IMG/VR virus record: IMGVR_UViG_3300021962_000758 | Coordinates: 1-21,422 of that record | Source of the DNA: a virus | DNA length: 21,422 nucleotides | Reading direction: 5' to 3' (one strand) | Shown here: positions 3,122 through 20,115 of the stretch, piece after piece | How positions within the stretch are numbered: the stretch's first letter is position 1 | Layout: each line of letters begins with the position of its first letter | Notes under the pieces: generated by a model | Database searches by the model: none | Seen by the model: the letters and a program-made list of their open reading frames with translations, nothing else | What the model was told of the DNA's origin: nothing | Translations under genes and position numbers: made by a program

Positions 3122-6100
3122 ATGGCCTCTACGTATTCGACAAATCTCGCGCTGGAGCTTATTGGCACAGGCGAACAATCTGGTACTTGGGGAACCACAA
3201 CCAATACCAACCTTGGCACTCTGTTGGAGCAAGCCATCAGTGGCTATGTAACCCAAGCCATTACTGACGGATCGGGTGCGAACACTACGATTACGATCCC
3301 CAATGGCGCTACGGGTGTAGCTCGTAACATGTTCATTGAGATGACGGGTGCTTTGTCGTTCTCCACGACTAGCCTGATTGTCCCCGCCAACAAGAAGATG
3401 TATTTCGTCTACAACAACACTTCCGGTGGTTTTGCTGTAACCGTGAAGGTGTCCGGTCAGACTGGGATACTTGTTCCTACAGGCAAGAAAGTCGTTCTGA
3501 CCTGCAACGGCACGGACATCGTAGAGGCACATACCGCTATCGTTGGTAACGCCACAATGGGCGGAACGCTGGGTGTAACCGGAACCACCACCGCAGCGGC
3601 AATCAACGCCTCTGGCACGGTAGCGATGGCAGGAGCAGCTACCGTTGGGACTACCCTCGGTGTAACGGGCGTAGCCACGTTAGGCAACGGCGCAATTCTC
3701 GGCACCCCCGCCTCCGCGACACTTACTAACGCAACCGGACTGCCAATCTCTAGCGGTGTTTCAGGTCTGGGGACGGGCGTAGCTACTGCGCTGGGAGTTA
3801 ATACAGGCTCCGCTGGCGCGATGGTGTTGTTTAACGGTGCGCTTGGAACTCCGACATCCGGCACAGTAACCAACCTAACCGGCACTGCCTCAATCAATAT
3901 CAACGGCACCGTAGGCGCTACGACTCCTGCTGCGGGTGCGTTTACCTCACTCACTGCATCCACAACCCTGACTGTAACGGGGGCGGGTTCCATTGAAGGT
4001 CTAACAGTAGGCCGTGGTGCAGGTGCTGTAGCGACGAATACGGCGGTGGGTGTTAGTGCTTTGGCGGCTAATACTACTGGCAACAATAGCGTGGCTGTAG
4101 GCTATCAAGCATTAAAAGCAAACACAACTGGTGAGTTCAATGTTGCTGTTGGTACTGACTCACTAAAAAGCAATACAACAGGCGGTTACAACACAGCGGC
4201 TGGCAGAGAGGTAATGGCGACAAATACAACAGGAGCCAATAATTCTGCTTTTGGGTATACCGCTCTTGTATTAAATACAACAGGTGGAAATAACACAGCA
4301 ATGGGCTATCAAGCCCTTCTATCCAACACCACAGCATCAAACAACACTGCTGTAGGTTATCAGGCGGGTTATGCAAATACTACTGGACTTCAAAATACCG
4401 CGCTTGGTTATTTGGCGATGTATAGCAACACTACTGCTACTCAAGGGTTGGGTGTTGGCTCTCAGGCTTTATACAGCAATACAACAGGCGCTAACAATAC
4501 AGCCGTTGGAGCGGCTTACCCTCTTTACTACAACACGACTGGAAGCAACAATACCGCAGTAGGTATGCAGGCTCTTGGCTCCAACACCACAGCATCAAAC
4601 AACACTGCTGTAGGTTATCAGGCGGGGTATACGAATACAGCGGCAAACCAAACTTTTGTTGGTTATCAGGCGGGACTTAACACAACTACAGGACAACAAA
4701 ATACTGCCGTAGGACAAGAGTCGCTAAAAGCAAACACAACGGGTATTGGCAACGTTGCAATGGGTGCGGGAGCGCTTCTTTCTGCAACAACGGCTAGTAA
4801 CAACACTGGTCTTGGTTATGGCGCACTTCAGTCCAACACCACAGCATCAAACAACACTGCTGTAGGTTATCAGGCGGCTTACACAAACAGCACGGGCACA
4901 AACCTCACAGCTATTGGTATTCAGTCTGGTTATTTGTTTGTTGGTTCTGTCTCCGAAGCATACGGAAGCACGTTTTTGGGTCGCCAAGCGGGTCAATCAA
5001 CATCAAGCGGATATGACAATGCTTTTGTTGGCGCAAGGGCTGGTAACTTAAACACAACAGGCGCAACAAACGTAGCTGTAGGCGCTGCCGCCCTCTACTC
5101 CAGCACCACAGCATCTAACAACACCGCTGTAGGTTATCAGGCGGGGTATACAGGAACTACTGCGGCAAACAATGTGTGGGTTGGCTACCAAGCGGGTAAA
5201 TCTGCAACAGGAAATTACAATGTTGGTGTAGGTGACAGAGCACTTACTGCAATGACAAGTGCCGAAAAGAATTCAGCATTTGGCATGATAGCATTGTTTT
5301 CAAATACAACAGGTTCATACAACACGGGTATAGGAAGTTCTGCATTAGAAGGAAATACTACAGGCGGTAACAATACTGCTGTTGGATTGCAAGCACTCCA
5401 AGCAAATACCACAGCATCTAACAACACTGCTGTAGGTTATCAGGCGGGGTATAGTGGCACTACCGCAACTCAAGTGGTTGCAATTGGTGGCGGGGCTTTA
5501 TACGCAAACACAGTCGATTACGGCACTGCTGTCGGTTTTCAAGCGTTGACTGCCAACACAACTGGTGCGGGAAATGCCGCTTTTGGTGCAACTGCTTTGG
5601 CAGGTAATACAACTGGTTCGGGAAATAGTGCGTTTGGTACATTTGCGTTTGCGGTATCAAATAGTCCATTACAAGCTAACACTACAGGCAGTAACAATTC
5701 CGCATTTGGTTTGGGTGCGTTGGCTGCCAACACCACAGCATCTAACAACACTGCTGTAGGTTATCAGGCGGGGTATAGCAACACGACTGGTGCTGGTAAT
5801 ACATTTGTTGGTTACACAGCAGGAACAGCAGTAACTACAGGGTCAAATTTAACTGTTATTGGTAATGCTGCCGTAGCATCTGCTGTTGGTGCAACAAATG
5901 AAATTACTTTAGGCAACAGTTCTATTGCTACATTGCGTTGCCAAGTAACTACCATAACGGCTCTATCTGATTCTCGTGATAAAGAAAACATACAAGAATT
6001 GCAAGCAGGATTAGATTTTGTAAGCAAATTAAAGCCCGTATCATTTGACTGGAATATGCGTGATGGCGGTAAAGTTGGAATTGCAGATACTGGTTTTATT

Positions 6101-6286
6101 GCACAAGACCTTAAACAAGTCCAAATTGATACTGGAATAACTATTCCTGATTTGGTTTACGAAGAAAACCCAGAAAGACTTGAAGCTGGTTATGGCAAGT
6201 TATTGCCTGTAATAGTCAAAGCCATCCAAGAACAACAAGCAATTATTGAATCACTCAAGGCACGTTTGGATGCCGCTAATCTTTAA
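3122..6286 (+). CDS. Tail fibre: phage anchor, YadA-like head repeats, peptidase S74 chaperone
   Basis: This 1054-residue receptor-binding candidate has three parts. Residues 1-140 are a phage-type N-terminus (NLALELIGTGEQSGTWG, TNTNLGTLLEQAI). Residues 140-300 are Gly/Thr-rich beta units (LGTPASATLTNATGLP, LGTPTSGTVTNLTG). Residues 305-940 hold about 37 degenerate 15-17-residue units of the type NNTAVGYQAL(x)3NTTG, as in YadA/Hia trimeric adhesin heads. The C-terminus from Ser949 (SDSRDKENI) is a peptidase S74/endosialidase-type chaperone, ending in a helical tail (LLPVIVKAIQEQQAIIE). In the family, the Ser/Lys-containing SDxRxK motif mediates self-cleavage after trimer folding; both residues (Ser949, Lys954) are present. 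The start has GGGAA upstream. Base composition drops sharply after about 4100. Confidence 0.9.
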   Translation: MASTYSTNLALELIGTGEQSGTWGTTTNTNLGTLLEQAISGYVTQAITDGSGANTTITIPNGATGVARNMFIEMTGALSFSTTSLIVPANKKMYFVYNNTSGGFAVTVKVSGQTGILVPTGKKVVLTCNGTDIVEAHTAIVGNATMGGTLGVTGTTTAAAINASGTVAMAGAATVGTTLGVTGVATLGNGAILGTPASATLTNATGLPISSGVSGLGTGVATALGVNTGSAGAMVLFNGALGTPTSGTVTNLTGTASININGTVGATTPAAGAFTSLTASTTLTVTGAGSIEGLTVGRGAGAVATNTAVGVSALAANTTGNNSVAVGYQALKANTTGEFNVAVGTDSLKSNTTGGYNTAAGREVMATNTTGANNSAFGYTALVLNTTGGNNTAMGYQALLSNTTASNNTAVGYQAGYANTTGLQNTALGYLAMYSNTTATQGLGVGSQALYSNTTGANNTAVGAAYPLYYNTTGSNNTAVGMQALGSNTTASNNTAVGYQAGYTNTAANQTFVGYQAGLNTTTGQQNTAVGQESLKANTTGIGNVAMGAGALLSATTASNNTGLGYGALQSNTTASNNTAVGYQAAYTNSTGTNLTAIGIQSGYLFVGSVSEAYGSTFLGRQAGQSTSSGYDNAFVGARAGNLNTTGATNVAVGAAALYSSTTASNNTAVGYQAGYTGTTAANNVWVGYQAGKSATGNYNVGVGDRALTAMTSAEKNSAFGMIALFSNTTGSYNTGIGSSALEGNTTGGNNTAVGLQALQANTTASNNTAVGYQAGYSGTTATQVVAIGGGALYANTVDYGTAVGFQALTANTTGAGNAAFGATALAGNTTGSGNSAFGTFAFAVSNSPLQANTTGSNNSAFGLGALAANTTASNNTAVGYQAGYSNTTGAGNTFVGYTAGTAVTTGSNLTVIGNAAVASAVGATNEITLGNSSIATLRCQVTTITALSDSRDKENIQELQAGLDFVSKLKPVSFDWNMRDGGKVGIADTGFIAQDLKQVQIDTGITIPDLVYEENPERLEAGYGKLLPVIVKAIQEQQAIIESLKARLDAANL
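4034..5940 (+). repeat. About 37 YadA-head-like units in the tail fibre
   Basis: Successive units of mostly 16-17 residues share N(N/S/T)(T/A)(A/F)(V/F)G in the first half and (N)TT(G/A) at the end. This is the register of left-handed parallel beta-roll head domains of trimeric autotransporters. Two longer units interrupt the period (around YLFVGSVSEAYG and FAFAVSNSPLQ). The count is by eye and may be off by one or two. Confidence 0.8.
4325..5772 (+). repeat. Six near-identical 44-base cassettes coding NTTASNNTAVGYQAGY
   Basis: Copies start at 4325, 4583, 4835, 5102, 5405 and 5729 and run about 44 bases. The first three share TCA in the Ser codon and the last three TCT; otherwise only scattered bases differ, for example AGC at 5102 and AAT at 5405. 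Spacings are 258, 252, 267, 303 and 324 bases, all multiples of three. The intervening head units are much more divergent at DNA level. Confidence 0.88.
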
Positions 6287-6301
6287 ACTGAAAGGTAAAT
6301 C

Positions 6302-6619
6302 ATGACAACTTTCACCACAACCATCACCCGCATGTACACCCTGCAACAGCCTGACCCAGACTATGTCGTCAACGCTTTGTGGGAAGTCACTGGCGTAGAT
6401 GGCACTAACACTGCCTCTATCGGTGGCAACACGCAGTTCAACTCTGCTGACCAAGAGGGTGCATTCATCCCCTACGCCAGCTTGACTCAAGCGCAGGTCA
6501 TTGGCTGGATTCCTGAGTCAGCCATTACAAGCGCACAGCAGTGTGTGCAGGGACAGATCGACAGCATGATCACGCCCCCTGTTAGTCCGGCAAATACACC
6601 GTTGCCGTGGGGCGCGTGA
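6302..6619 (+). CDS. Small conserved protein downstream of tail fibre, 105 aa
   Basis: ATG at 6302 follows AAAGG by about 6 bases. The protein begins with a beta strand run (TTFTTTITRMYTLQQPDPDYVV), then ALWEVTGVDGTN and GGNTQFNSADQEGAFIPYASLT, and an amphipathic helix (QAQVIGWIPESAITSAQQCV) before a proline-rich end. I associate this with a conserved phage family found directly after tail fibres, possibly a fibre assembly or capping factor, but I cannot name it with confidence. There is one cysteine and no signal or membrane segment. Its stop overlaps the next ATG by one base (TGATG), so it is coupled to the lysis cassette. Confidence 0.7.
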   Translation: MTTFTTTITRMYTLQQPDPDYVVNALWEVTGVDGTNTASIGGNTQFNSADQEGAFIPYASLTQAQVIGWIPESAITSAQQCVQGQIDSMITPPVSPANTPLPWGA

Positions 6620-6801
6620 TGAACCTGCTTAAAAGCAAAACAGTCTGGTATGCGATTCTAATCGCAGTCTTGTCCATCGTTCAGGGCTATATAGGTTTGC
6701 TGCCGATGACGCCGGTAGCACAGATGGTTATCGGGATAGGTATCTCGGTGGGCATCGTTATTTTGCGTCTACTCACCACTCAACCGATAGGGGATAAGTA
6801 A
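6619..6801 (+). CDS. Two-helix membrane protein, holin-like candidate, 60 aa
   Basis: ATG at 6619 shares one base with the preceding TGA, which favours it over the in-frame GTG at 6607. The product has two hydrophobic helices: about residues 9-29 (VWYAILIAVLSIVQGYIGLL) and 34-53 (VAQMVIGIGISVGIVILRLL), with a short polar loop (PMTP) and a basic N-terminus. Size and topology fit a small class II-type holin or an antiholin. A separate 3-TM holin lies at 7723, so this one may be the partner or regulator. The stop overlaps the next ATG by one base. Membrane location is well supported; lysis function is inferred from neighbours. Confidence 0.75.
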   Translation: MNLLKSKTVWYAILIAVLSIVQGYIGLLPMTPVAQMVIGIGISVGIVILRLLTTQPIGDK

Positions 6802-11354: not shown

Positions 11355-12524
11355 ATGAGCCTAAACCTTTATGACGCAAGCGGAAATATAATAGGGCAGC
11401 AAGGGGGTTTATTGGGTAGGCAACGCGAAACCCTGATGGAGCTGGGAATGGATAAAAGCCCTTTACAGCAACCATTAGGAACAACAACACTCCCCCCACA
11501 AATAGGGCAAATTCCGCAAACGCCTAATTTGAGCAGCTACGGTCAGGCTGGCGGGTTGCAAACGTTTGATGACTTGCGGTCTCAAGGCTTACAGATGGGC
11601 CATGGCGGTCTGGGGATGAATCGAAGCGCACAACCATCTAACCAGCCACCTAAATCTTATACAAATCCTTCTGATTTTGAAGGATTGAATTTTGCATCAG
11701 CAGACACGGCTTTTGGTGGCGCAAATTATCAACGAATGCCAATGTTTAGTTATGCTGCTGGGACTTCAAAAGAAGATGTGCTAAAAAGTCAAGCTCCGTA
11801 CATGACTCGTGAGAGCTATGAAAAACGGTTAGACAGTATAAGAGAAAATCAAACTCCGACACAAATGCAGCCACTCTCGCAGACGCCTTCAAATCAGCCA
11901 ACACTCCCCCCACAAATAGGGCAACAACAGTTTGGCAATAGTGGTATTGGTAGTCTAGGTGGTGGCGGCGGTGGCGGGCAAACTAACGTCAGTTTAAATC
12001 TTCAGGGAAGCGCCACGATGAATCCTCAAGGAGCAAATCAAAATAGAGGGTATCCCGGAATGAACTTTGCGTCCGCGCAGGATCAGAGTAGGGGGACGAT
12101 GATGTTTGCTGAAGGTGGCCCCGCCAAGCAAGGTGTAGGCAGTTTAGACCGTGGCAGGACTGGTATCCGTGAGATAGATATTATCAAGACTTATCTTTTG
12201 CATCTGGGTGTGAAGCAGGAACAGGTTCCGCAAATGATTCAGGCGGTGGTTAAGGATGGAGCGAAGTTTACCCGCGTTGGTAATACCATGATGTCTATGA
12301 AGCCTATTAGCCAGAATGCCGCGCAGGTTTATTTCTATACTGTTAGTAAGATGCCTGAGTTTATGGACGACGTTAAAGGCTTTATTAATAAGCTAAAGCA
12401 GAGTGGTATCAGCGTTATTTATATGAACAAAGAAGACCGAGATATCATGCAAGCAATTCAAGCTGCCGGTGCTAGTGTCCAGCCGTCTGACCGTCCTGAA
12501 TTCAAGATAATGGCTGGGATATGA
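11355..12524 (+). CDS. Internal/ejection module protein with AEGG motif and possible GNAT-like C-terminus
   Basis: This 389-residue protein has a low-complexity Gln/Pro/Gly/Asn-rich N-terminal two-thirds. It holds the twice-used phrase TLPPQIGQ, two NFASA motifs and a GlyGlyGlyGlyGlyGly stretch. It then has the block FAEGGPAKQGVGSLDRGRTG and a folded C-terminal ~120 residues (IREIDIIKTYLLHLGVKQEQ, YFYTVSKMPEFMDDVKGFIN, SVIYMNKEDRDIMQAIQAAG). The final helix-Ala-Ala-Gly-strand arrangement is reminiscent of the GNAT-like fold of T7 gp13-type proteins, but the match is weak. Bases 11640-11880 are AT-richer than the flanks. It overlaps the cupin gene by 4 bases. Likely a virion protein; function unknown. 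Confidence 0.65.
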   Translation: MSLNLYDASGNIIGQQGGLLGRQRETLMELGMDKSPLQQPLGTTTLPPQIGQIPQTPNLSSYGQAGGLQTFDDLRSQGLQMGHGGLGMNRSAQPSNQPPKSYTNPSDFEGLNFASADTAFGGANYQRMPMFSYAAGTSKEDVLKSQAPYMTRESYEKRLDSIRENQTPTQMQPLSQTPSNQPTLPPQIGQQQFGNSGIGSLGGGGGGGQTNVSLNLQGSATMNPQGANQNRGYPGMNFASAQDQSRGTMMFAEGGPAKQGVGSLDRGRTGIREIDIIKTYLLHLGVKQEQVPQMIQAVVKDGAKFTRVGNTMMSMKPISQNAAQVYFYTVSKMPEFMDDVKGFINKLKQSGISVIYMNKEDRDIMQAIQAAGASVQPSDRPEFKIMAGI

Positions 12525-12937
12525 ACACAGAAGTTACAGGGCAGAATCCTACCGGAGTTGCAACTGGGCGTTTAAACGCCCTTGCTCTGGAGGTATTAAA
12601 GCAACCACAGGTTGACTGCCCTGTAACGCATCACTTTGGCCCCAGTATATACATCCGGGAAGTTGTAATGCCAGCAGGAACTGTTGTTGTTGGTAAGCCC
12701 CATAAGACTGAGCATATGTGCAACATGATTTCTGGGCGCATGATTGTTGTTAATGAAGATGGGGATAGGATGGATGTAGTCGCGCCCTGTGTGTTTATGG
12801 CAAAGAAAGGCCGGAAGACTGCTTACATTATAGAAACAGTCCGGTTTCAAAATATTTTTTCAACGAATGAAACCGACATTGCGAAGCTAGAGGATATGCT
12901 AGTGGACAATACTCCGTTACTGGAAGAGGGAGAATAG
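12521..12937 (+). CDS. Cupin-like small protein in virion module, 138 aa
   Basis: The central region (residues ~35-110) shows the cupin pattern of short strands and turns: HHFGPSIYIREVVMPAGTVV, then GKPHKTEHMCNMISGRMIVV, then a ProCys turn and a closing strand (TAYIIETVRFQNIF). His61 and His65 lie where the metal-binding histidines of cupin motif 1 would be, followed by ISG; the usual Glu of motif 1 is not clearly placed, so catalysis is uncertain. An acidic tail (LEDMLVDNTPLLEEGE) ends the protein. Cupin-like proteins between ejection genes recur in podophages and are of unknown role; structural use of the fold is possible. It overlaps the preceding gene by ATGA. Confidence 0.72.
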   Translation: MNTEVTGQNPTGVATGRLNALALEVLKQPQVDCPVTHHFGPSIYIREVVMPAGTVVVGKPHKTEHMCNMISGRMIVVNEDGDRMDVVAPCVFMAKKGRKTAYIIETVRFQNIFSTNETDIAKLEDMLVDNTPLLEEGE

Positions 12938-12938
12938 T

Positions 12939-15491
12939 ATGTCTTTTATTGGCGCGGCAACAGCGATGGGTTTGACTGGCATTGGCGCTACAATTGGTGC
13001 TGGCGTGATGATGGGCGGCGCTACGACTATAGGCATGAACTTGATACGCGGGAAAGACCCGTTTGATAACATAGGTCAAGGGCTGTTGCTGGGTGGAATA
13101 GGCCAAGGAATATTTGGGTCTGCTGGCGCTGCTGCTGGAGTTGGTGAGGGCGCTGCGGCTAGTGCATCATTTGATGCGGCAGGGAATATGATACCCATAA
13201 AAGATATGGCTACTACGGCTTTTTCTGATAGCGCCGCTGCTAATCTTGGTTCTAAATATGGCGGAACAAATATGTTGCCGGGTATGCCGGTATCAGACCC
13301 ATATGGTCTAACTTCAGTTACAAATAATGCTAATTTAGCCCCTCATTCAATATATGGCGGTTCTAGTAGTCTGGCTGTACCAACGCCAGATGTTTATATT
13401 AATGACCAGCAATTTCTTGGCGACACAGAAGCGGCTATGCAAGCACGGCAATTAGGTGCTATGAAGCAAACTCAAGGGCTGGTCTCTATGCCGCCAGCGC
13501 GGGAAGCAGTAACTCCTGCAACAGTAGAGTCTTCCCCCGGCACTACAGCCATGCCGGTGCAGCCCGCAAATTACCTTGGCGGTTATCCTAAATCGTCATC
13601 TGGTACATCTTTTATGGATGATCCTCTTAAATGGATGAATGCCAACAAAGGAAAAACCGCGCTCGGTGCGGCTGCTGCTGCTGGCGCTATGGGTGCTTTC
13701 AACCGTAACACTGGTTTAAAGAACCTGCCTCCTCGCTCTTATCAGCGCGTCAACACTTCCTATAACCCCGGAACAGTTAATCCGAAATATGGTATGCCGG
13801 GAGAACCTTACTTCGTGGGTCAAGGCTATGGGCCAGAAACTCGTGAAACCTTCTATGGAGCGGCGGGTGGAGGTATCAGGGCTTTGAGTAGTGGCGGTGA
13901 GACTGCCCCCTATGTGCCGATGACTGCTCGTGGGCAGATGTCTTGGAGAGAAAACGTTCCTGATGATCTAGATGACTCTGCTGCGTTTAAACGGTATCTT
14001 AAATCTGACATCAATAAAAAAGAAGAAAAGGGTCAGGCAGAAATAGATAAGAACGTATCGTCGTGGCTAGAGCGCTATGCAAAAGCTGATGTTAAAGGTA
14101 TGGCTGAAGGTGGCCCCGCCCAGCAAGTAACCCCGTTCCAACCCACATTCTCTACCGCTCCACAAGGTATTGGGTCGCTACCGTATCAGGCACCCAATGT
14201 TCCTGCAATGCAGTCTTCTCCAACGGACTATAACCAGTCCCCGCAGTATGCCCCGACACAGCAGTATTCTGCCCCCGCAGCAAACCCTATGACAGCAGGT
14301 TTGGGTAGTTATTTGCAAGGGTTGCAATACAAAGCTCCTGTTACCCCTGCTCCCACCACTAGCACTACGTCACCTGCCGGATATAACCCAGCTACACAGA
14401 CCTATGGGACAACCCCAGCTACCCCCACCACTGCTCTTCCCGTCACTCCGAAAACACGACAAGTGCCACAAGGCGAGGATGAACCAGACAAAACGGAATA
14501 CCTACAGCCGGATGGTAGTTACTCCGATCTAAGCCCTGCGCTGACAGGTGTAACTACACGAACGATATCACGAGAGGCAGAGGATGGAGGAAACATATTG
14601 GAATACCAGTTGCCGGATAAAAGCTGGAGTTCCATCCACCCTGCGTTGGTAGGTCTAAATACACGACAAGTACAACAGGACGAGAAACCAGACATAACGG
14701 AATATCAGTCGCCGGATGGGAATTGGAGTTCCGCTAAAAATTTTGATTACGGGTCGCAAAACTCTAAACCCCCCGTTACTATTTACGACCCCAGCACACA
14801 GCGTTATATACCAAAACCTGTCTCACCTCCCTCAGATGAGTTGTTTTACACACAGCCCATCTCACCTGATGAATTTTACACACAGCCTGTCTCACCTCCC
14901 GCTTTTATGGGGGCAGGGAGAGAAGGATATTCCTCAGGAGACGACTCTGGTGGTGGATATGGCGATGGTGGTGGATATGGCGATAGTGGTGGCCCACCTC
15001 CCCCTCCTTCTTCTGGGTTCTTTGGTTATCCGGGTTCAGTTAATCCACCTGCCCCACCTCCCCCTCCTTCTTCTACTCCATATGGAACCTTTGACGACTC
15101 TGGTGGTGGATATGGCGATGGTGGCTTTAACTACGGTGGCGACGGTGGTGATGGAGACAAAGCTGGTGGGCCGATCAAGTCCAGAAGGTACGCTATGGGT
15201 GGTCTTGCGGCTCTACCTGAATACGCCGCTGGGGGTAAGTTGTTGAGCGGTGACGGTGACGGAATGAGCGATAGTATCCCTGCTGTAATAAAGGGAGCGC
15301 AGCCTCAACGTGCGGCACTGGCTGATGGAGAGTTTGTCATCCCGGCTGACGTAGTGTCTCATCTGGGGAACGGCTCAACGAAGGCTGGTGGCAAGCGGTT
15401 ATATGAGATGATGGCTAATATCCGCAAGGCGAGGACAGGCAACCCGAAACAGGGCAAGCAGATTAACCCGATGAAATTCATACCGGCATGA
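12939..15491 (+). CDS. Large internal virion protein candidate, glycine-zipper N-terminus, Pro/Gly-rich repeats
   Basis: ATG at 12939 has GGGAG about 6 bases upstream. The 850-residue product opens with glycine-spaced hydrophobic helices (GIGATIGAGVMMGGATTIG, GLLLGGIGQGIFGSAGAAAG), suited to membrane insertion. A disordered middle follows, with MAEGGPAQQ at ~388, three 34-35-residue repeats (507-602), and Pro-rich and GlyTyrGlyAsp-rich stretches (~640-750). The C-terminus (~760-850) is conserved-looking: LLSGDGDGMSDSIPAVI, ADGEFVIPADVVSHLGNGST, then ARTGNPKQGKQINPMKF. I recognise this C-terminal block from many environmental phage structural proteins. An ejected channel-forming protein is inferred. 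It overlaps the GNAT-like gene by ATGA. Confidence 0.68.
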   Translation: MSFIGAATAMGLTGIGATIGAGVMMGGATTIGMNLIRGKDPFDNIGQGLLLGGIGQGIFGSAGAAAGVGEGAAASASFDAAGNMIPIKDMATTAFSDSAAANLGSKYGGTNMLPGMPVSDPYGLTSVTNNANLAPHSIYGGSSSLAVPTPDVYINDQQFLGDTEAAMQARQLGAMKQTQGLVSMPPAREAVTPATVESSPGTTAMPVQPANYLGGYPKSSSGTSFMDDPLKWMNANKGKTALGAAAAAGAMGAFNRNTGLKNLPPRSYQRVNTSYNPGTVNPKYGMPGEPYFVGQGYGPETRETFYGAAGGGIRALSSGGETAPYVPMTARGQMSWRENVPDDLDDSAAFKRYLKSDINKKEEKGQAEIDKNVSSWLERYAKADVKGMAEGGPAQQVTPFQPTFSTAPQGIGSLPYQAPNVPAMQSSPTDYNQSPQYAPTQQYSAPAANPMTAGLGSYLQGLQYKAPVTPAPTTSTTSPAGYNPATQTYGTTPATPTTALPVTPKTRQVPQGEDEPDKTEYLQPDGSYSDLSPALTGVTTRTISREAEDGGNILEYQLPDKSWSSIHPALVGLNTRQVQQDEKPDITEYQSPDGNWSSAKNFDYGSQNSKPPVTIYDPSTQRYIPKPVSPPSDELFYTQPISPDEFYTQPVSPPAFMGAGREGYSSGDDSGGGYGDGGGYGDSGGPPPPPSSGFFGYPGSVNPPAPPPPPSSTPYGTFDDSGGGYGDGGFNYGGDGGDGDKAGGPIKSRRYAMGGLAALPEYAAGGKLLSGDGDGMSDSIPAVIKGAQPQRAALADGEFVIPADVVSHLGNGSTKAGGKRLYEMMANIRKARTGNPKQGKQINPMKFIPA
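14457..14744 (+). repeat. Three ~35-residue repeats in the 850-aa protein
   Basis: Units start at 14457, 14559 and 14664 (102, 105 and 81 bases, the last truncated). Each has an Arg-(Gln/Thr) start, an acidic stretch, (T/L)EYxxPD(G/K) and (S/N)(Y/W)S. The first two continue into (L/I)(S/H)PAL(T/V)G. Confidence 0.8.
14940..15124 (+). repeat. Direct DNA repeats in Gly-Tyr-Gly-Asp / poly-Pro region
   Basis: A 32-base segment is repeated exactly at 14940-14971 and 15093-15124 (coding DDSGGGYGDGG). Between them a 21-base Pro-coding segment is repeated exactly at 14994-15014 and 15054-15074, 60 bases apart. Such exact copies could recombine and change repeat number. Confidence 0.85.
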
Positions 15492-15943
15492 ACGAGAGAG
15501 AACTCAATACCACTGCAATACCTATAGGGTCATTGACACAGAATATACCTTTAATTCATAAGTATCTTGTAACAGCCGCTGAGTTGACGGACGGGCGTTG
15601 CCTTGTAGATGATTTAGTCAAATTTTTTTATACCGGACTTTTTACGTTATGGCTTATTTATTACGAAGACACCAAAGAAGTAATTGGGTTTTTTGCGCTG
15701 GAAGTTAAGGCGTACCCGCAATGCAAACTTATGTGTATTCAACATTGCACCACGGAGCCGGGAAGTATGAAAGATGGGTTTAACCAAAAGATGCAGGACA
15801 CCATAGAAGCCCATGCTAAAGGTAACGGCTGTTCTGGGATTGAATTTGTTGGGCGGTTTGGGTGGAAAAAATACACCGACGAGTTAGGTTATAAAAAATC
15901 TAGCCAGATATATCAGAAAGCATTATTAGAGGTAACGATATGA
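15488..15943 (+). CDS. GNAT-fold-like phage protein, 151 aa
   Basis: The protein has the layout of a small GNAT-like domain: an N-terminal helix (IHKYLVTAAELTDGR), strands TLWLIYYEDTKEVIGFFALE and CKLMCIQHCTTEPGSM, a helix (FNQKMQDTIEAHAKGNGC), the strand IEFVGRFGWKKYTDELGY and a last strand YQKALLEVTI. The Gly-Tyr-helix-Tyr end is typical of GNATs, but the acetyl-CoA loop (Q/RxxGxG/A) is not evident. It may therefore be a structural relative, as suggested for T7 gp13-like proteins encoded next to ejection proteins. ATGA overlaps on both sides tie it to its neighbours. There are four or five cysteines. Enzyme activity is uncertain. Confidence 0.68.
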   Translation: MNERELNTTAIPIGSLTQNIPLIHKYLVTAAELTDGRCLVDDLVKFFYTGLFTLWLIYYEDTKEVIGFFALEVKAYPQCKLMCIQHCTTEPGSMKDGFNQKMQDTIEAHAKGNGCSGIEFVGRFGWKKYTDELGYKKSSQIYQKALLEVTI

Positions 15944-17934
15944 AGCATAATTGGGAATTAGGGCCGGGATACGACCTCGACGCATTCCGTAGCGAAGGCG
16001 GAAAAATGAGGTTATATGGTAAAGGCGGTGGCTCCCCTGCTCCCGCGCCTTCTAGCCAGACGGTAAGCCAGACTAATATCCCCCCAGAGTTGATGCCGTA
16101 TGCCACAAAAGTTCTTGGGCGCGCGGAATCCCTGACAGATATAAACCAGAATCCCTACCAGCAATACCAAGGGAACCGCGTTGCTGATTTCAACCCGTTG
16201 CAAACCCAAGCATTTAGCAATATAGCCGGGATGACCACAAACGCCGGAACCGGCAATGCGATGAATCAGACGCAGGATGCCTATAATCGTTCCGCAAATG
16301 CAGGGCCATATAACGCGCAGAACTTTGGTAATCAGTATGGATCAGGGCCGCAGTTTCAAAACATGGGGCTGGGTTATTTGGCAGCAAACGCACCGCAGCT
16401 TAACCAATACCAGATGGGGCAAGCAAATCAGGTTAGCGGAAACAATGTTAATAACCAGAATATAAATGCTGCTCAGTCTAATTACAGACCTGATCTAGAC
16501 CAATACCAGATGGGGCCAGCAAGTCAAGTTCGCGGAAACAATGTTAGCAACCAAAATATAAATGCAGCACAGTCTGGTTACCAAGCAGATTTAAACGATT
16601 ACCAAATGGGGCCAGCAAGTCAGGTTCGGTCACAAAACTTCGGACAGCAGTTTGCACAAGACTACATGTCACCCTACCAACAGAATGTAACTGACTTCCA
16701 GAAACAAGAAGCGGTTAAGGACTATGGGCGTCAATTGCCGGGTATGGGCGCACAGGCGGCTGGTGCTGGAGCGTTTGGGGGGACTAGACATGCGCTGGTT
16801 GCGGCAGAGGGGCAAAGGAATTTGCAAACTCAGCTTGGCGGTATCCAAGCAGCGGGAAGCCAAAACGCCTACCAGAACGCGCAGCAGCAGTTCAATGCTG
16901 ACCAAGCACGGCGTCAGCAAGCGCAGATGTCTAACCAACAGGCAGGATTAACTGTTGGACAACAGAATCTCGCTTCTCAGCTTCAGACTCAAGGACTAAG
17001 GGCTGGTCAGAACTTACAAGTTGCCATGTCTAACCTGTCTAATCGTCAGCAAACAAACGTACAGAACGCGGCTAATAATCTGCAAGCTCAAGGAATGAAT
17101 GCTGATCAAGCGTTGAGGGCGGCATTAGCTAACCAACAGGCGGGGCTTACCACAGGACAGGCAAATCTTTCCTCCCAACTGCAAACCCAAGCACTGGGGG
17201 CTGGTCAGAACTTGCAAGTTGCCATGTCTAACCTGTCTAATCGACAACAAGCAAATGTCCAGAACGCGGCTAATAATTTGCAAGCCCAAGGGATGAATGC
17301 GGAACAGGCGATGAGAGCGGCGTTAGCTAACCAACAAGCGGGGCTAACGGTTGGGCAACAGAATTTACAATCACAGCTTCAGACCCAAGCACTGGGTTCA
17401 GGGCAAAGTATGCAAGCCCAACTTGCCAATCAAGGGGCGTATGGGCAGATGCAAGGTCTTGGTATGCAACAGAACCTTGCAAGCAACCAACAGGCGATGC
17501 AGAACGCTGCCCAACAAGCCCAGTACGGGTTGGCAGGACAGCAAGCTGGGGAAGCATCACGGCAGTTTGGTGCTAACTATGGGCTTCAGAATCGTCAGCA
17601 AGCACTAGCAGCGGCAGGGCAGTTAGGGAATCTGGGGATGCAGCAGTATCAGCAGAACATGGGTATTAATCAAGCACAGCAGTTAAGTGGAGCGCAAATT
17701 CAGGCACAGGAGCAACAGAAACTTAGCCAGCAGTATCAGGACTTCTTGAACCAGCAAAACTACCCGTATAAACAGCTTGGCTTTATGTCTGACCTGATCC
17801 GTGGAACACCGACATCCGGTGGCGCAGCAACAATGTATCAAGCCCCACCTAGCGCGATGTCTTCAACTGTCGGGTTACTGGGTGGATTAGGCAGTCTTGC
17901 TGGCGCGTATAGCGCAGCACAGCCAAGACAGTAA
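15940..17934 (+). CDS. Gln/Asn-rich internal virion protein with tandem repeats, 664 aa
   Basis: The start overlaps the previous stop (ATGA). After a short leader (RSEGGKMRLYGKGGGSPAPA) the conserved-looking N-terminal block reads PPELMPYATKVLGRAESLTD, then PYQQYQGNRVADFNPLQTQA. The body is extremely Gln/Asn/Ala-rich: three 32-residue units from residue 156 and three 66-residue units from residue ~331, both probably long helices. Near the C-terminus is FLNQQNYPYKQLGFMSDLIR followed by TMYQAPPS and a glycine-zipper end (LLGGLGSLAGAYSAA). I know the two end blocks from uncharacterised podophage and siphophage structural proteins beside ejection genes. A DNA-ejection or core protein is inferred. 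No enzymatic motif. Confidence 0.7.
   Translation: MKHNWELGPGYDLDAFRSEGGKMRLYGKGGGSPAPAPSSQTVSQTNIPPELMPYATKVLGRAESLTDINQNPYQQYQGNRVADFNPLQTQAFSNIAGMTTNAGTGNAMNQTQDAYNRSANAGPYNAQNFGNQYGSGPQFQNMGLGYLAANAPQLNQYQMGQANQVSGNNVNNQNINAAQSNYRPDLDQYQMGPASQVRGNNVSNQNINAAQSGYQADLNDYQMGPASQVRSQNFGQQFAQDYMSPYQQNVTDFQKQEAVKDYGRQLPGMGAQAAGAGAFGGTRHALVAAEGQRNLQTQLGGIQAAGSQNAYQNAQQQFNADQARRQQAQMSNQQAGLTVGQQNLASQLQTQGLRAGQNLQVAMSNLSNRQQTNVQNAANNLQAQGMNADQALRAALANQQAGLTTGQANLSSQLQTQALGAGQNLQVAMSNLSNRQQANVQNAANNLQAQGMNAEQAMRAALANQQAGLTVGQQNLQSQLQTQALGSGQSMQAQLANQGAYGQMQGLGMQQNLASNQQAMQNAAQQAQYGLAGQQAGEASRQFGANYGLQNRQQALAAAGQLGNLGMQQYQQNMGINQAQQLSGAQIQAQEQQKLSQQYQDFLNQQNYPYKQLGFMSDLIRGTPTSGGAATMYQAPPSAMSSTVGLLGGLGSLAGAYSAAQPRQ
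16405..16629 (+). repeat. Tandem 96-base repeat coding (D/N)xYQMGxAxQV
   Basis: Units start at 16405, 16501 and 16597. The first two are complete 32-residue copies; the third ends after MGPASQVR. The peptide cores are YQMGxAxQV and NNVxNQNINAAQSxY. Confidence 0.85.
16931..17409 (+). repeat. Tandem 198-base repeat in Gln-rich protein
   Basis: Units start at 16931, 17129 and 17327 with exact 198-base offsets checked at several anchors (for example 16990/17188/17386). Units one and two are full 66-residue copies with long identical DNA stretches. The third is cut after ~83 bases and then drifts into related Gln-rich sequence. Confidence 0.88.
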
Positions 17935-17943
17935 GGAGCTAAT

Positions 17944-20115
17944 ATGATCGGTCAACAAGGTAGTTTGGGGGTATCCCCCGCAGAGCTTCTGGCAGCTAAA
18001 AATATGGCTTCCGGGAAGTCCAACATGAATAAAGAGATTTCCCTTGGTGGTGATCTGACGCGACTGATGTTGGCTGCGATGCAACTGAAGAAATCTCAAG
18101 CGGAGCTAGAGAAGCTAAAACTCACGCGGGGAGCCAATCCCCAGACCACCGTGGCGCAGGATGTGCAGAAAGGCATAGCGCAGTTACAAGGACAGCCCGA
18201 AGAGCAGCCCCAGCAGCCCCAGCAGCCCCAAGGTCAGCCCCAAGGTCAGCAGCAGCAAATGGCGCGGATGGGTTCGGGTATCGGTGGTCTACCTGCTGGC
18301 GCGATAGACAATGAGGATGCGTTTGCTGGTGGTGGGATCGTTGCGTTTGCTGAAGGTGATCAGGTAGAGAGCAAACCGATTACCATAACACCTGACCGCG
18401 AGGCTTTTAACTATTTTATCTCTCAAGGTTGGACTCCTGCTGCTGCTGCTGGTTTTGTAAGTAACATACAAGCCGAATCTGCTTTCAATCCCAATTCACA
18501 GCATGACTTTGATAAAAAAACAAATACTTATATTGGAACCGGACTTGTTGGGTGGAATGCTGGGCGTAGACAACAGTTAGAGGCTATGTATGGCAGCAAG
18601 CCTACATACCAACAACAACTTGAGTATCTCCACAAGGAATTAAGTGGTGAAACAAAAGATGAGCCGGGGACTGCTGGCGTTGGTAAACGGCTCCGTGATA
18701 ATCCAAATATATCCGCAAACGATGCAGCAGCTATGTTATCTAGGGAAGGAATACGCCCCAAAGATAGAGAAGGACAGGCAAAATACAGAGGCACCCTTGC
18801 AGAGCAGTTGCTTACTGGCTTCACTGGTTCCGGTAATGCGAATGCCGCAGAGCCTCCAAGAGCCGCAGCCCCCACTGGTATAGCAGCAACACTTACGCCG
18901 AGTGAACTTCAGGCTAAAAGCGATAATGAAGCATTAAAAGCCGCAGGACGTGGAATCAAAGGTTTTGCTGACTCTGGTGTTGCCGCGCTCAAGGATTGGG
19001 CTACTGCAATTCCAAGGGCTGCATCAAGAGCGTATGGCGCTGTCACTGGTAATGAACCCCCGATGACTACTAATTCATGGACTCCGTATTCAGATGCGGA
19101 TAGTGCAAAAAAAGAAGATGCTACCAAAGATGGAGCGCCAAAAGGACACCCGCAAAGCCATGAGCGGGGTAAAGATGAAGGGGCTGACTTGCCGTCTGTA
19201 GTTGCTATACCAGCGCAGCAAAGAGTGCAGCCACAGGTGATTACTTCTGACCGAGAGCCTGATTATAGCAAATATTCTCCAAATGGGAGAACTGCGCCCG
19301 CTATAAAATCGTTAAAGGACATAGCTAATGATACTTTATATACAGGACTGACTACTCAACCTTTATCTAGAGAGGCTTATGATAAGCAAGTGAATGCTAT
19401 TGCAAAAAAAGAAGGCACTGACCCAGCGTCAATGAAAGAGTTTTTTGACAAACAATCAGCATCTTTTACCAATCAAGCAGTAGAAGCAAAGAAAAATAGA
19501 GATGTTGATCTATGGATGTCCGCCGCCCAAGGATTCTTTGCTATGGGAGCCGGTACTTCGCCAAGAGCCTTACAAAACTTCGCTATGGGTGCTGGGATAG
19601 GCGTTAAGCAAGCCCAATCTGCATTAAATGAATATGGGAAAGCTCAAAAAGAAATTAACGCCGCTCAACGAGACATTGCTAAATTTGAAATGTCTCATAG
19701 GGAGACACGCACAGCACAGCAAATTGCTTCTTATGATAAAGCACTTGCTCGTGCTGATCTTTTTGAAGCGAGGAAACTTGGTATTGCCGAAAAAGTTTGG
19801 GAAAGAATCATTAGACAAGATGAAATAAAAGAGAGTCGTTTAAACAGGGAATACACACAACGCAGAGATTTTGAAAGAAAACAATTAGATGATTTTAGAG
19901 ATACTTTAAATAAAGACCCTGAATATTCTTCAGCAAAAAAAGCGTTTGAAGGCTTAGATCAACTGGCAATATTGTATAAAGATAAGCCAGCAGAATTTGC
20001 TGCTGAAACTAGGAAGATACAAGAAAGAATGAAGCAAGCAGAGACGCGTGTCAAAAGTGGGTATCCTGCTTTGGGAGGTAATTCAGGTGGTGCAAAATTC
20101 TTAGGATATGAATAA
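17944..20115 (+). CDS. Internal virion protein with phage-tail-lysozyme domain, 723 aa
   Basis: AAGGAG lies 6 bases upstream of ATG. Domain order: an N-terminal helical part; a Pro/Gln tract (~85-107); GGGIVAFAEGDQ (~130); a murein hydrolase domain at ~145-285 (FNYFISQGWTPAAAAGFVSN, then IQAESAFNPNS, GTGLVGWNAGRR, SREGIRPKDR). The rest is a low-complexity linker and a long charged helical C-terminus (LWMSAAQGFFAMG, ALNEYGKAQKEINAAQRDIA). The lysozyme-like block matches the phage tail lysozyme family (PF18013-like), with Glu178 the likely catalytic acid. A wall-cutting domain in an internal protein parallels T7 gp16. Bases after ~19250 are markedly AT-rich. TAATG couples it to the next gene. 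Confidence 0.8.
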   Translation: MIGQQGSLGVSPAELLAAKNMASGKSNMNKEISLGGDLTRLMLAAMQLKKSQAELEKLKLTRGANPQTTVAQDVQKGIAQLQGQPEEQPQQPQQPQGQPQGQQQQMARMGSGIGGLPAGAIDNEDAFAGGGIVAFAEGDQVESKPITITPDREAFNYFISQGWTPAAAAGFVSNIQAESAFNPNSQHDFDKKTNTYIGTGLVGWNAGRRQQLEAMYGSKPTYQQQLEYLHKELSGETKDEPGTAGVGKRLRDNPNISANDAAAMLSREGIRPKDREGQAKYRGTLAEQLLTGFTGSGNANAAEPPRAAAPTGIAATLTPSELQAKSDNEALKAAGRGIKGFADSGVAALKDWATAIPRAASRAYGAVTGNEPPMTTNSWTPYSDADSAKKEDATKDGAPKGHPQSHERGKDEGADLPSVVAIPAQQRVQPQVITSDREPDYSKYSPNGRTAPAIKSLKDIANDTLYTGLTTQPLSREAYDKQVNAIAKKEGTDPASMKEFFDKQSASFTNQAVEAKKNRDVDLWMSAAQGFFAMGAGTSPRALQNFAMGAGIGVKQAQSALNEYGKAQKEINAAQRDIAKFEMSHRETRTAQQIASYDKALARADLFEARKLGIAEKVWERIIRQDEIKESRLNREYTQRRDFERKQLDDFRDTLNKDPEYSSAKKAFEGLDQLAILYKDKPAEFAAETRKIQERMKQAETRVKSGYPALGGNSGGAKFLGYE
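18204..18257 (+). repeat. Gln/Pro codon microsatellite
   Basis: Imperfect repeats of CAGCAGCCC and CAAGGTCAGCCC code a PQQPQQPQGQPQGQQQQ tract between the helical N-terminus and the AEG motif. It is likely a flexible linker that can vary in length in steps of three bases. Confidence 0.75.

Follow-up and report, generated by a model that had tools for sequence, protein, structure and literature searches.

A short [FYM]AxGG element, a candidate docking tag, in the joints of virion proteins that are probably ejected by a large group of uncultured phages

The sorting of internal proteins into phage capsids and their ordered ejection are poorly understood, and the window analyzed here (IMG/VR virus record IMGVR_UViG_3300021962_000758, 21,422 bases; all coordinates are relative to this window) raises the question of why one short peptide should recur in several of its predicted internal virion proteins. 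The peptide is found in three genes, designated C, B and A, which encode proteins of 389, 850 and 723 amino acids (aa), respectively, and which lie, as do all the genes concerned, on the + strand. To judge from the homologues, the motif is [FYM]-A-x-G-G, extended in the A gene to [FYM]AxGGIVAFxxG[GD]. The element is conserved as a protein sequence, falls in regions of predicted disorder, clusters in three gene families within a single module and coincides with the edges of domain swaps. We tentatively propose that it may serve as a short docking element placed in flexible joints of virion proteins that are probably ejected, in a large uncultured phage group; a docking tag shared by these proteins is a possible explanation and our best guess.

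A previous reading of the window, made from the sequence only, had placed FAEGGP at 12105–12122 and AEGGP at 14103–14117, with an exact 18-base stretch, GCTGAAGGTGGCCCCGCC, common to 12108–12125 and 14103–14120. All these positions are accurate, and the identity extends to 24 of 25 bases (Table 1). The third occurrence that it had pointed out, in the A gene, could be placed at 18328–18363 (GGGIVAFAEGDQ), and 13 bases, TTTGCTGAAGGTG, are common to 12105 and 18346. Three sites in B had been overlooked, GGGIRALSSGG, YAMGG and YAAGG. On the other hand, SEGGK (15991–16005), in the gene of the 664-aa ejection-like protein, does not belong to the motif: this gene contains none of the [FYMLW][AS]xG[GD] sites, and contig L008, the nearest relative among the related contigs compared, differs there and reads FFRLSFGGGGGS. 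Nor are the genes quite as unrelated outside the motif as had been thought, since modules are shared among them; contig L007 joins the leader of the 389-aa protein via LAKGG to a B-type N-terminus.

As to chance, the count of AEGG within the window is by itself only mildly surprising: GCNGARGGNGG occurs twice, and two are reached in 10 of 100 shuffles. The C gene has a single [FYMLW][AS]xG[GD] site, which by itself does not reach significance (P 0.22); the B gene has five, which do (P 0.003). The C and B genes have no exact match longer than 18 bases, against at most 17 in 500 trials with codon-shuffled versions. With the codon usage of the window, the same peptide would be spelled by six identical codons with a probability of 7e-4. 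The evidence that the recurrence goes beyond chance rests on the DNA identity and on the homologues. The 18-mer itself is not a widespread sequence: it is present in five other contigs only and never reads AEGGPA there, which indicates that it arose locally. The 18-base identity would be a separate matter of local origin, namely a tract recently recombined or copied between two similar joints.

Conservation was assessed in an unbiased set of 80 loci fetched solely by the B C-terminal domain, the motif not being used, which avoids circularity; this set supersedes an earlier alignment of 80 A sequences, in which the GGIV.FA columns were invariant since the loci had been picked by that pattern. 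All 33 true A clusters have the element or a variant close to it, with GG in 33, I in 30, V or I in 33, A in 30, F in 30 and then G in 25 of them, and the flanking columns of the same clusters carry approximately 0.5 bit each. Among the clusters of genes that precede the giant gene following A, 31 of 36 come within two mismatches of GGIVAFA, 0.9 being expected, and three of the remainder are short non-A genes. The A and B genes contain the motif [FYM]AxGG 13 to 22 times as often as expected (46 observed vs. 2.1 expected in A; 44 vs. 3.5 in B without its C-terminus), and the genes between A and B show a weaker enrichment (8 vs. 1.9). The motif is not enriched in five upstream tail genes pooled (1 vs. 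about 2.0) and not clearly enriched in the giant gene (9 vs. 5.8). A profile of the A element matches, with a score of at least 6 bits, seven of 69 B proteins (0.1 in shuffles) and none of 123 other tail genes; five element matches in the class of giant genes look like mis-sorted A genes of more than 900 aa, four of which (932–1173 aa) are picked by a stricter pattern. In the family of the 389-aa protein, MAKGGL, FAKGGL or YAEGGL stands directly before the domain in homologues of 29% identity. The sequence-only reading had staked its proposal on conservation at these positions in homologues. The motif is indeed conserved there, and a single short motif recurring in separate predicted internal virion proteins is encountered in hundreds of related phages.

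Where the element lies within these proteins bears on its function. In the A proteins its position ranges from residue 87 to 458 (5–95 percentile), and this internal placement led us to reject a double-glycine leader peptide, whose GG would close a short leader at the N-terminus. The motif lies beyond residue 350 in 23 of the 117 A proteins with exact GGIVAFA. In L043, the case tested, the part before the motif matches a separate ejection-like gene of the cultured phages MinM2 and RW (see below), so that this gene is fused to A; an apparent fusion of an ejection-like gene to the A N-terminus, with GGIVAFA near the seam, was noted in L017, L020, L024, L033, L042, L043 and others. The AlphaFold model of the A protein consists of N-terminal helices, a disordered joint that carries the motif (predicted local distance difference test, pLDDT, about 40), the Phage_lysozyme2 domain, a disordered stretch and long, confident C-terminal helices; the matches of a fold search of the PDB with this model were for the most part to long helices, and all had E above 0.001. 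The model of the B C-terminus is of low confidence (pLDDT 55). A glycine-rich motif in predicted disordered linkers, found where domains join, could be a structural hinge, that is, a passive flexible joint, built from a GG turn plus a small patch of hydrophobic residues, that allows unfolding and threading via the narrow portal and tail and has no specific partner. We regard this as less likely than docking, though the most serious of the rivals: a passive joint has no need of I, V/I and F in 30, 33 and 30 of 33 clusters, and the adjoining giant gene is not clearly enriched in the motif.

The joints are also where whole domains are exchanged. Homology between sequences ends just after the motif about twice as often as expected (246 vs. 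119 in A, 144 vs. 68 in B), the excess at plain GG sites being little or smaller. The B protein and its L008 counterpart are alike up to MAEGG, then differ, and are alike again from AGGPI onward into YAMGGLAALPEYAAGG; the A proteins have FAGGGIVAFA in common and continue with different muralytic domains. This pair of close relatives represents a hydrolase swap, with Phage_lysozyme2 in the A gene of the window and a transglycosylase-like domain in its L008 counterpart (the whole of which spans 4469–6625), the N-terminus and the motif being common; other members have SLT or glucosaminidase. The C gene is a mosaic at the DNA level, 99% identical to L004–L006 at 11505–11628, 90% identical to L007 at 11897–12067 and 92% identical to L008 at 12142–12524, and FAEGGP lies in the last junction. 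In L004–L006 the first of these segments has a counterpart of 99.2% identity within a gene that otherwise differs and encodes a 791-aa protein. The segment containing it is flanked by an exact 26-base direct repeat (11485–11510 and 11899–11924, encoding TLPPQIGQ) and was probably inserted there recently.

Such junctions, the homology in B that stops exactly after MAEGG and the 18-base identity with identical codons are what a recombination seam would produce, in which the element is kept mainly as short conserved DNA promoting module exchange (linker homology) and the protein sequence follows incidentally. We nevertheless consider this unlikely. A DNA signal would conserve bases, whereas third codon positions vary freely between genomes, and the enrichment of boundaries is only about two-fold. 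Indeed, the 103 GGIVAFA copies among the matches listed are encoded by 86 distinct 21-mers; with codons varying this freely, selection acts on the protein, and a conserved DNA site is ruled out as the main cause.

The sequence-only reading had offered a processing site as one function for the motif. Cuts between E and GG in FAEGG and MAEGG would resemble Glu-type prohead sites, and internal proteins are common substrates of maturation proteases, as in T4-like or phiKZ-like phages. The residue statistics argue against it. The position before GG is Glu in 12% of the sites only, and in about half of them it is one of Gly, Ala, Asp and Ser, so that the invariant P1 Glu of such cleavage is lacking, and FAEGDQ of the window is FAAGDP in L008; Glu-type cleavage was rejected on these grounds. 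In addition, no S78, ClpP-type or S49 protease was found in 16–17 related contigs, whose records may be incomplete; a scan for an S77 protease was void, its control having remained silent. The rarity of Glu together with the lack of an S78, ClpP-type or S49 protease in these contigs makes processing the least likely reading. Hardly more probable is a membrane-active patch, in which GGIVAFA would insert into the inner or outer membrane on ejection of the protein. The stretch is hydrophobic and these proteins probably cross the envelope, but it comprises only five or six hydrophobic residues, and the weakly hydrophobic variants MAEGGPA and YSDGGRLL also occur.

According to the docking explanation, several different proteins would bind one partner inside the virion through a common tag, candidate partners being the portal or adaptor lumen, the internal core or one another. 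Cargo domains, for instance different peptidoglycan hydrolases, could then be exchanged behind the tag without loss of packaging or of the order of ejection. Several points weigh against it. The conserved joint could be structural and not a docking site. L008, the nearest relative, lacks the motif ahead of the C-gene domain. Plain GG sites in B also show an excess of homology starts (529 vs. 360), and the contigs are related by descent, which inflates the z-scores of the boundaries. Finally, the motif letters of A and B do not covary significantly within the same genome (P 0.11); this speaks against direct pairing of A with B, and direct co-adaptation of the two was discarded.

Comparison with known systems places part of the module. 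The B C-terminus is related, by sequence, to elements of tape measure proteins (PHROG families 3547, 17300 and 6090) that follow the pattern [YF]AxGG-[FL]-x-GPGTGxSDS-[IM]-x-A-x-[LV]-S-x-GEF[IV]: with its profile, 39 of 52 members match PHROG 3547 (best 1.3e-4), and gp16 of mycobacteriophage Douge (PDB 8zdo) is matched at E 1.2e-4. Douge gp16 contains two copies of the element, starting YAGGGFLSGPGTG and YANGGFLSGAGTG, each with YAxGG. In the Douge structure paper gp16 is assigned for residues 1658–1699 only, hence the element itself is unseen there. Unlike tape measure proteins, B carries the element at the end of a protein of approximately 270–1350 aa, the module around it includes ejection-like and muralytic genes, and the AxGG part also stands alone in two other genes. 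Many B proteins (e.g. L136, L137 and L183) start with a second conserved element, GLASLGRGxDSMLVHMTPGEVxGLQxLAMAHGGSLTINPxTGLPEAGFL.

The module resembles the gp14–gp16-type ejection proteins of podovirus T7 in its adjacent genes, one with a muralytic domain, and in the long C-terminal helices of the model, but no sequence kinship to them was shown here. The 664-aa protein gives a weak match to phrog_4287 (DNA ejection; E 0.0022), and 18 of 80 A proteins match the same family (best 4e-26), a match in any part of the protein being counted. The 664-aa gene also contains two internal tandem duplications, at 16392–16583 and 16931–17326 (96 and 198 bases, 81% identical). Outside its lysozyme domain the 723-aa protein matches nothing in Pfam. 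The whole protein matches phrog_9570 (E 1.1e-10, residues 82–313, element included), a match that disappears with the piece lacking the lysozyme domain, and N-terminal pieces of A proteins (element and module) scanned alone against PHROGs gave no match below E 0.18. As cultured relatives, MinM2-type and RW-type phages were identified. Synechococcus phage MinM2 has the order B-like, ejection-like, A-like and large gene, with YAEGG and YADGG; Caulobacter phage RW (proposed Riverwalkvirus) has MARGGYAV plus GPGTGRSDSI. What sets them apart from the window is that GGIVAFA does not occur in its full form in their A-position genes. The exchange of hydrolase domains between ejection proteins has already been described (PMC8954989), and the passages of that paper that were searched mention no such repeated motif. 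A text search of the literature for the peptide strings found no paper naming them; as far as the literature searched shows, what is new is a conserved peptide in the joint at whose edge domains are swapped.

Scanning for the codons of GGIVAFA yielded at least 120 stretches, at least 114 loci in frame and at least about 103 open reading frames with the same context. Among the matches listed, the gene order is often that of the window: a gene for 600–700 aa, one for about 110 or about 210 aa, B, one for 135–150 aa, the ejection-like gene, A and the giant gene. A scan of one genome per species (84,980 species) returned five contigs only, all metagenome-assembled, from which the phage group looks lytic and nearly uncultured. 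The features of the window are collected in Table 1. The 138-aa protein encoded between C and B has a nearly identical version in L008, and a tail-fibre-like gene further upstream (3122–6286) repeats the unit NTTGxNNTAVGYQA many times (4094–5812).

Table 1. Genes and sequence elements of the module, in window coordinates.
Feature	Position	Strand	Remarks
C gene (389 aa)	11355–12524	+	variable, Pro/Gln-rich leader; FAEGGP joint; conserved domain of ~130 aa (residues 257–389)
Joint motif FAEGGPAKQ, C gene	12105–12131	+	between L007-like stretch (90%, ends 12067) and L008-like stretch (92%, starts 12142)
25-base repeat, copy 1	12108–12132	+	24/25 identical to copy 2, first 18 exact
138-aa gene	12521–12937	+	matches short tail fibre PHROGs
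B gene (850 aa)	12939–15491	+	C-terminus tape-measure-like
GGGIRALSSGG, B gene	13866–13898	+	weak relative of GGGIVAFAEGD, 2.7 bits
Joint motif MAEGGPAQQ, B gene	14100–14126	+	L008 homology ends immediately after MAEGG
25-base repeat, copy 2	14103–14127	+	
Double joint motif YAMGGLAALPEYAAGGKLL (YAMGG and YAAGG), B gene	15189–15245	+	other edge of the variable region, leads into the C-terminal element
Tape-measure-type element GDGDGMSDSIPAVIKG..LADGEFVIPADVVSHLGNGST, B gene	15249–15380	+	
151-aa gene	between B gene and 664-aa gene	+	
664-aa ejection-like gene	15940–17934	+	weak DNA-ejection match
A gene (723 aa)	17944–20115	+	Phage_lysozyme2 at residues 153–290, E 4e-17
Full A-gene element GIGGLPAGAIDNEDAFAGGGIVAFAEGD	18277–18360	+	
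Giant gene, only start in window	downstream of A	+	virion-RNA-polymerase-like and DarB-like matches

To our knowledge no general packaging signal has been established for internal virion proteins. A seven-residue element that is nearly invariant across a large group of uncultured phages, amid sequence that can barely be aligned, is a concrete and mutable candidate for such a signal. A broader view, which we find doubtful, is that GGIVAFA/[FYM]AxGG could act as an address tag for ejected phage proteins in general, with one receptor site in the virion interior serving several proteins; if this were true, new enzymes would become cargo by simple fusion behind the tag, and tape measure elements would begin with this very tag. 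The element marks where these proteins exchange their enzymatic cargo, and it could help to annotate hundreds of proteins that belong to no family.

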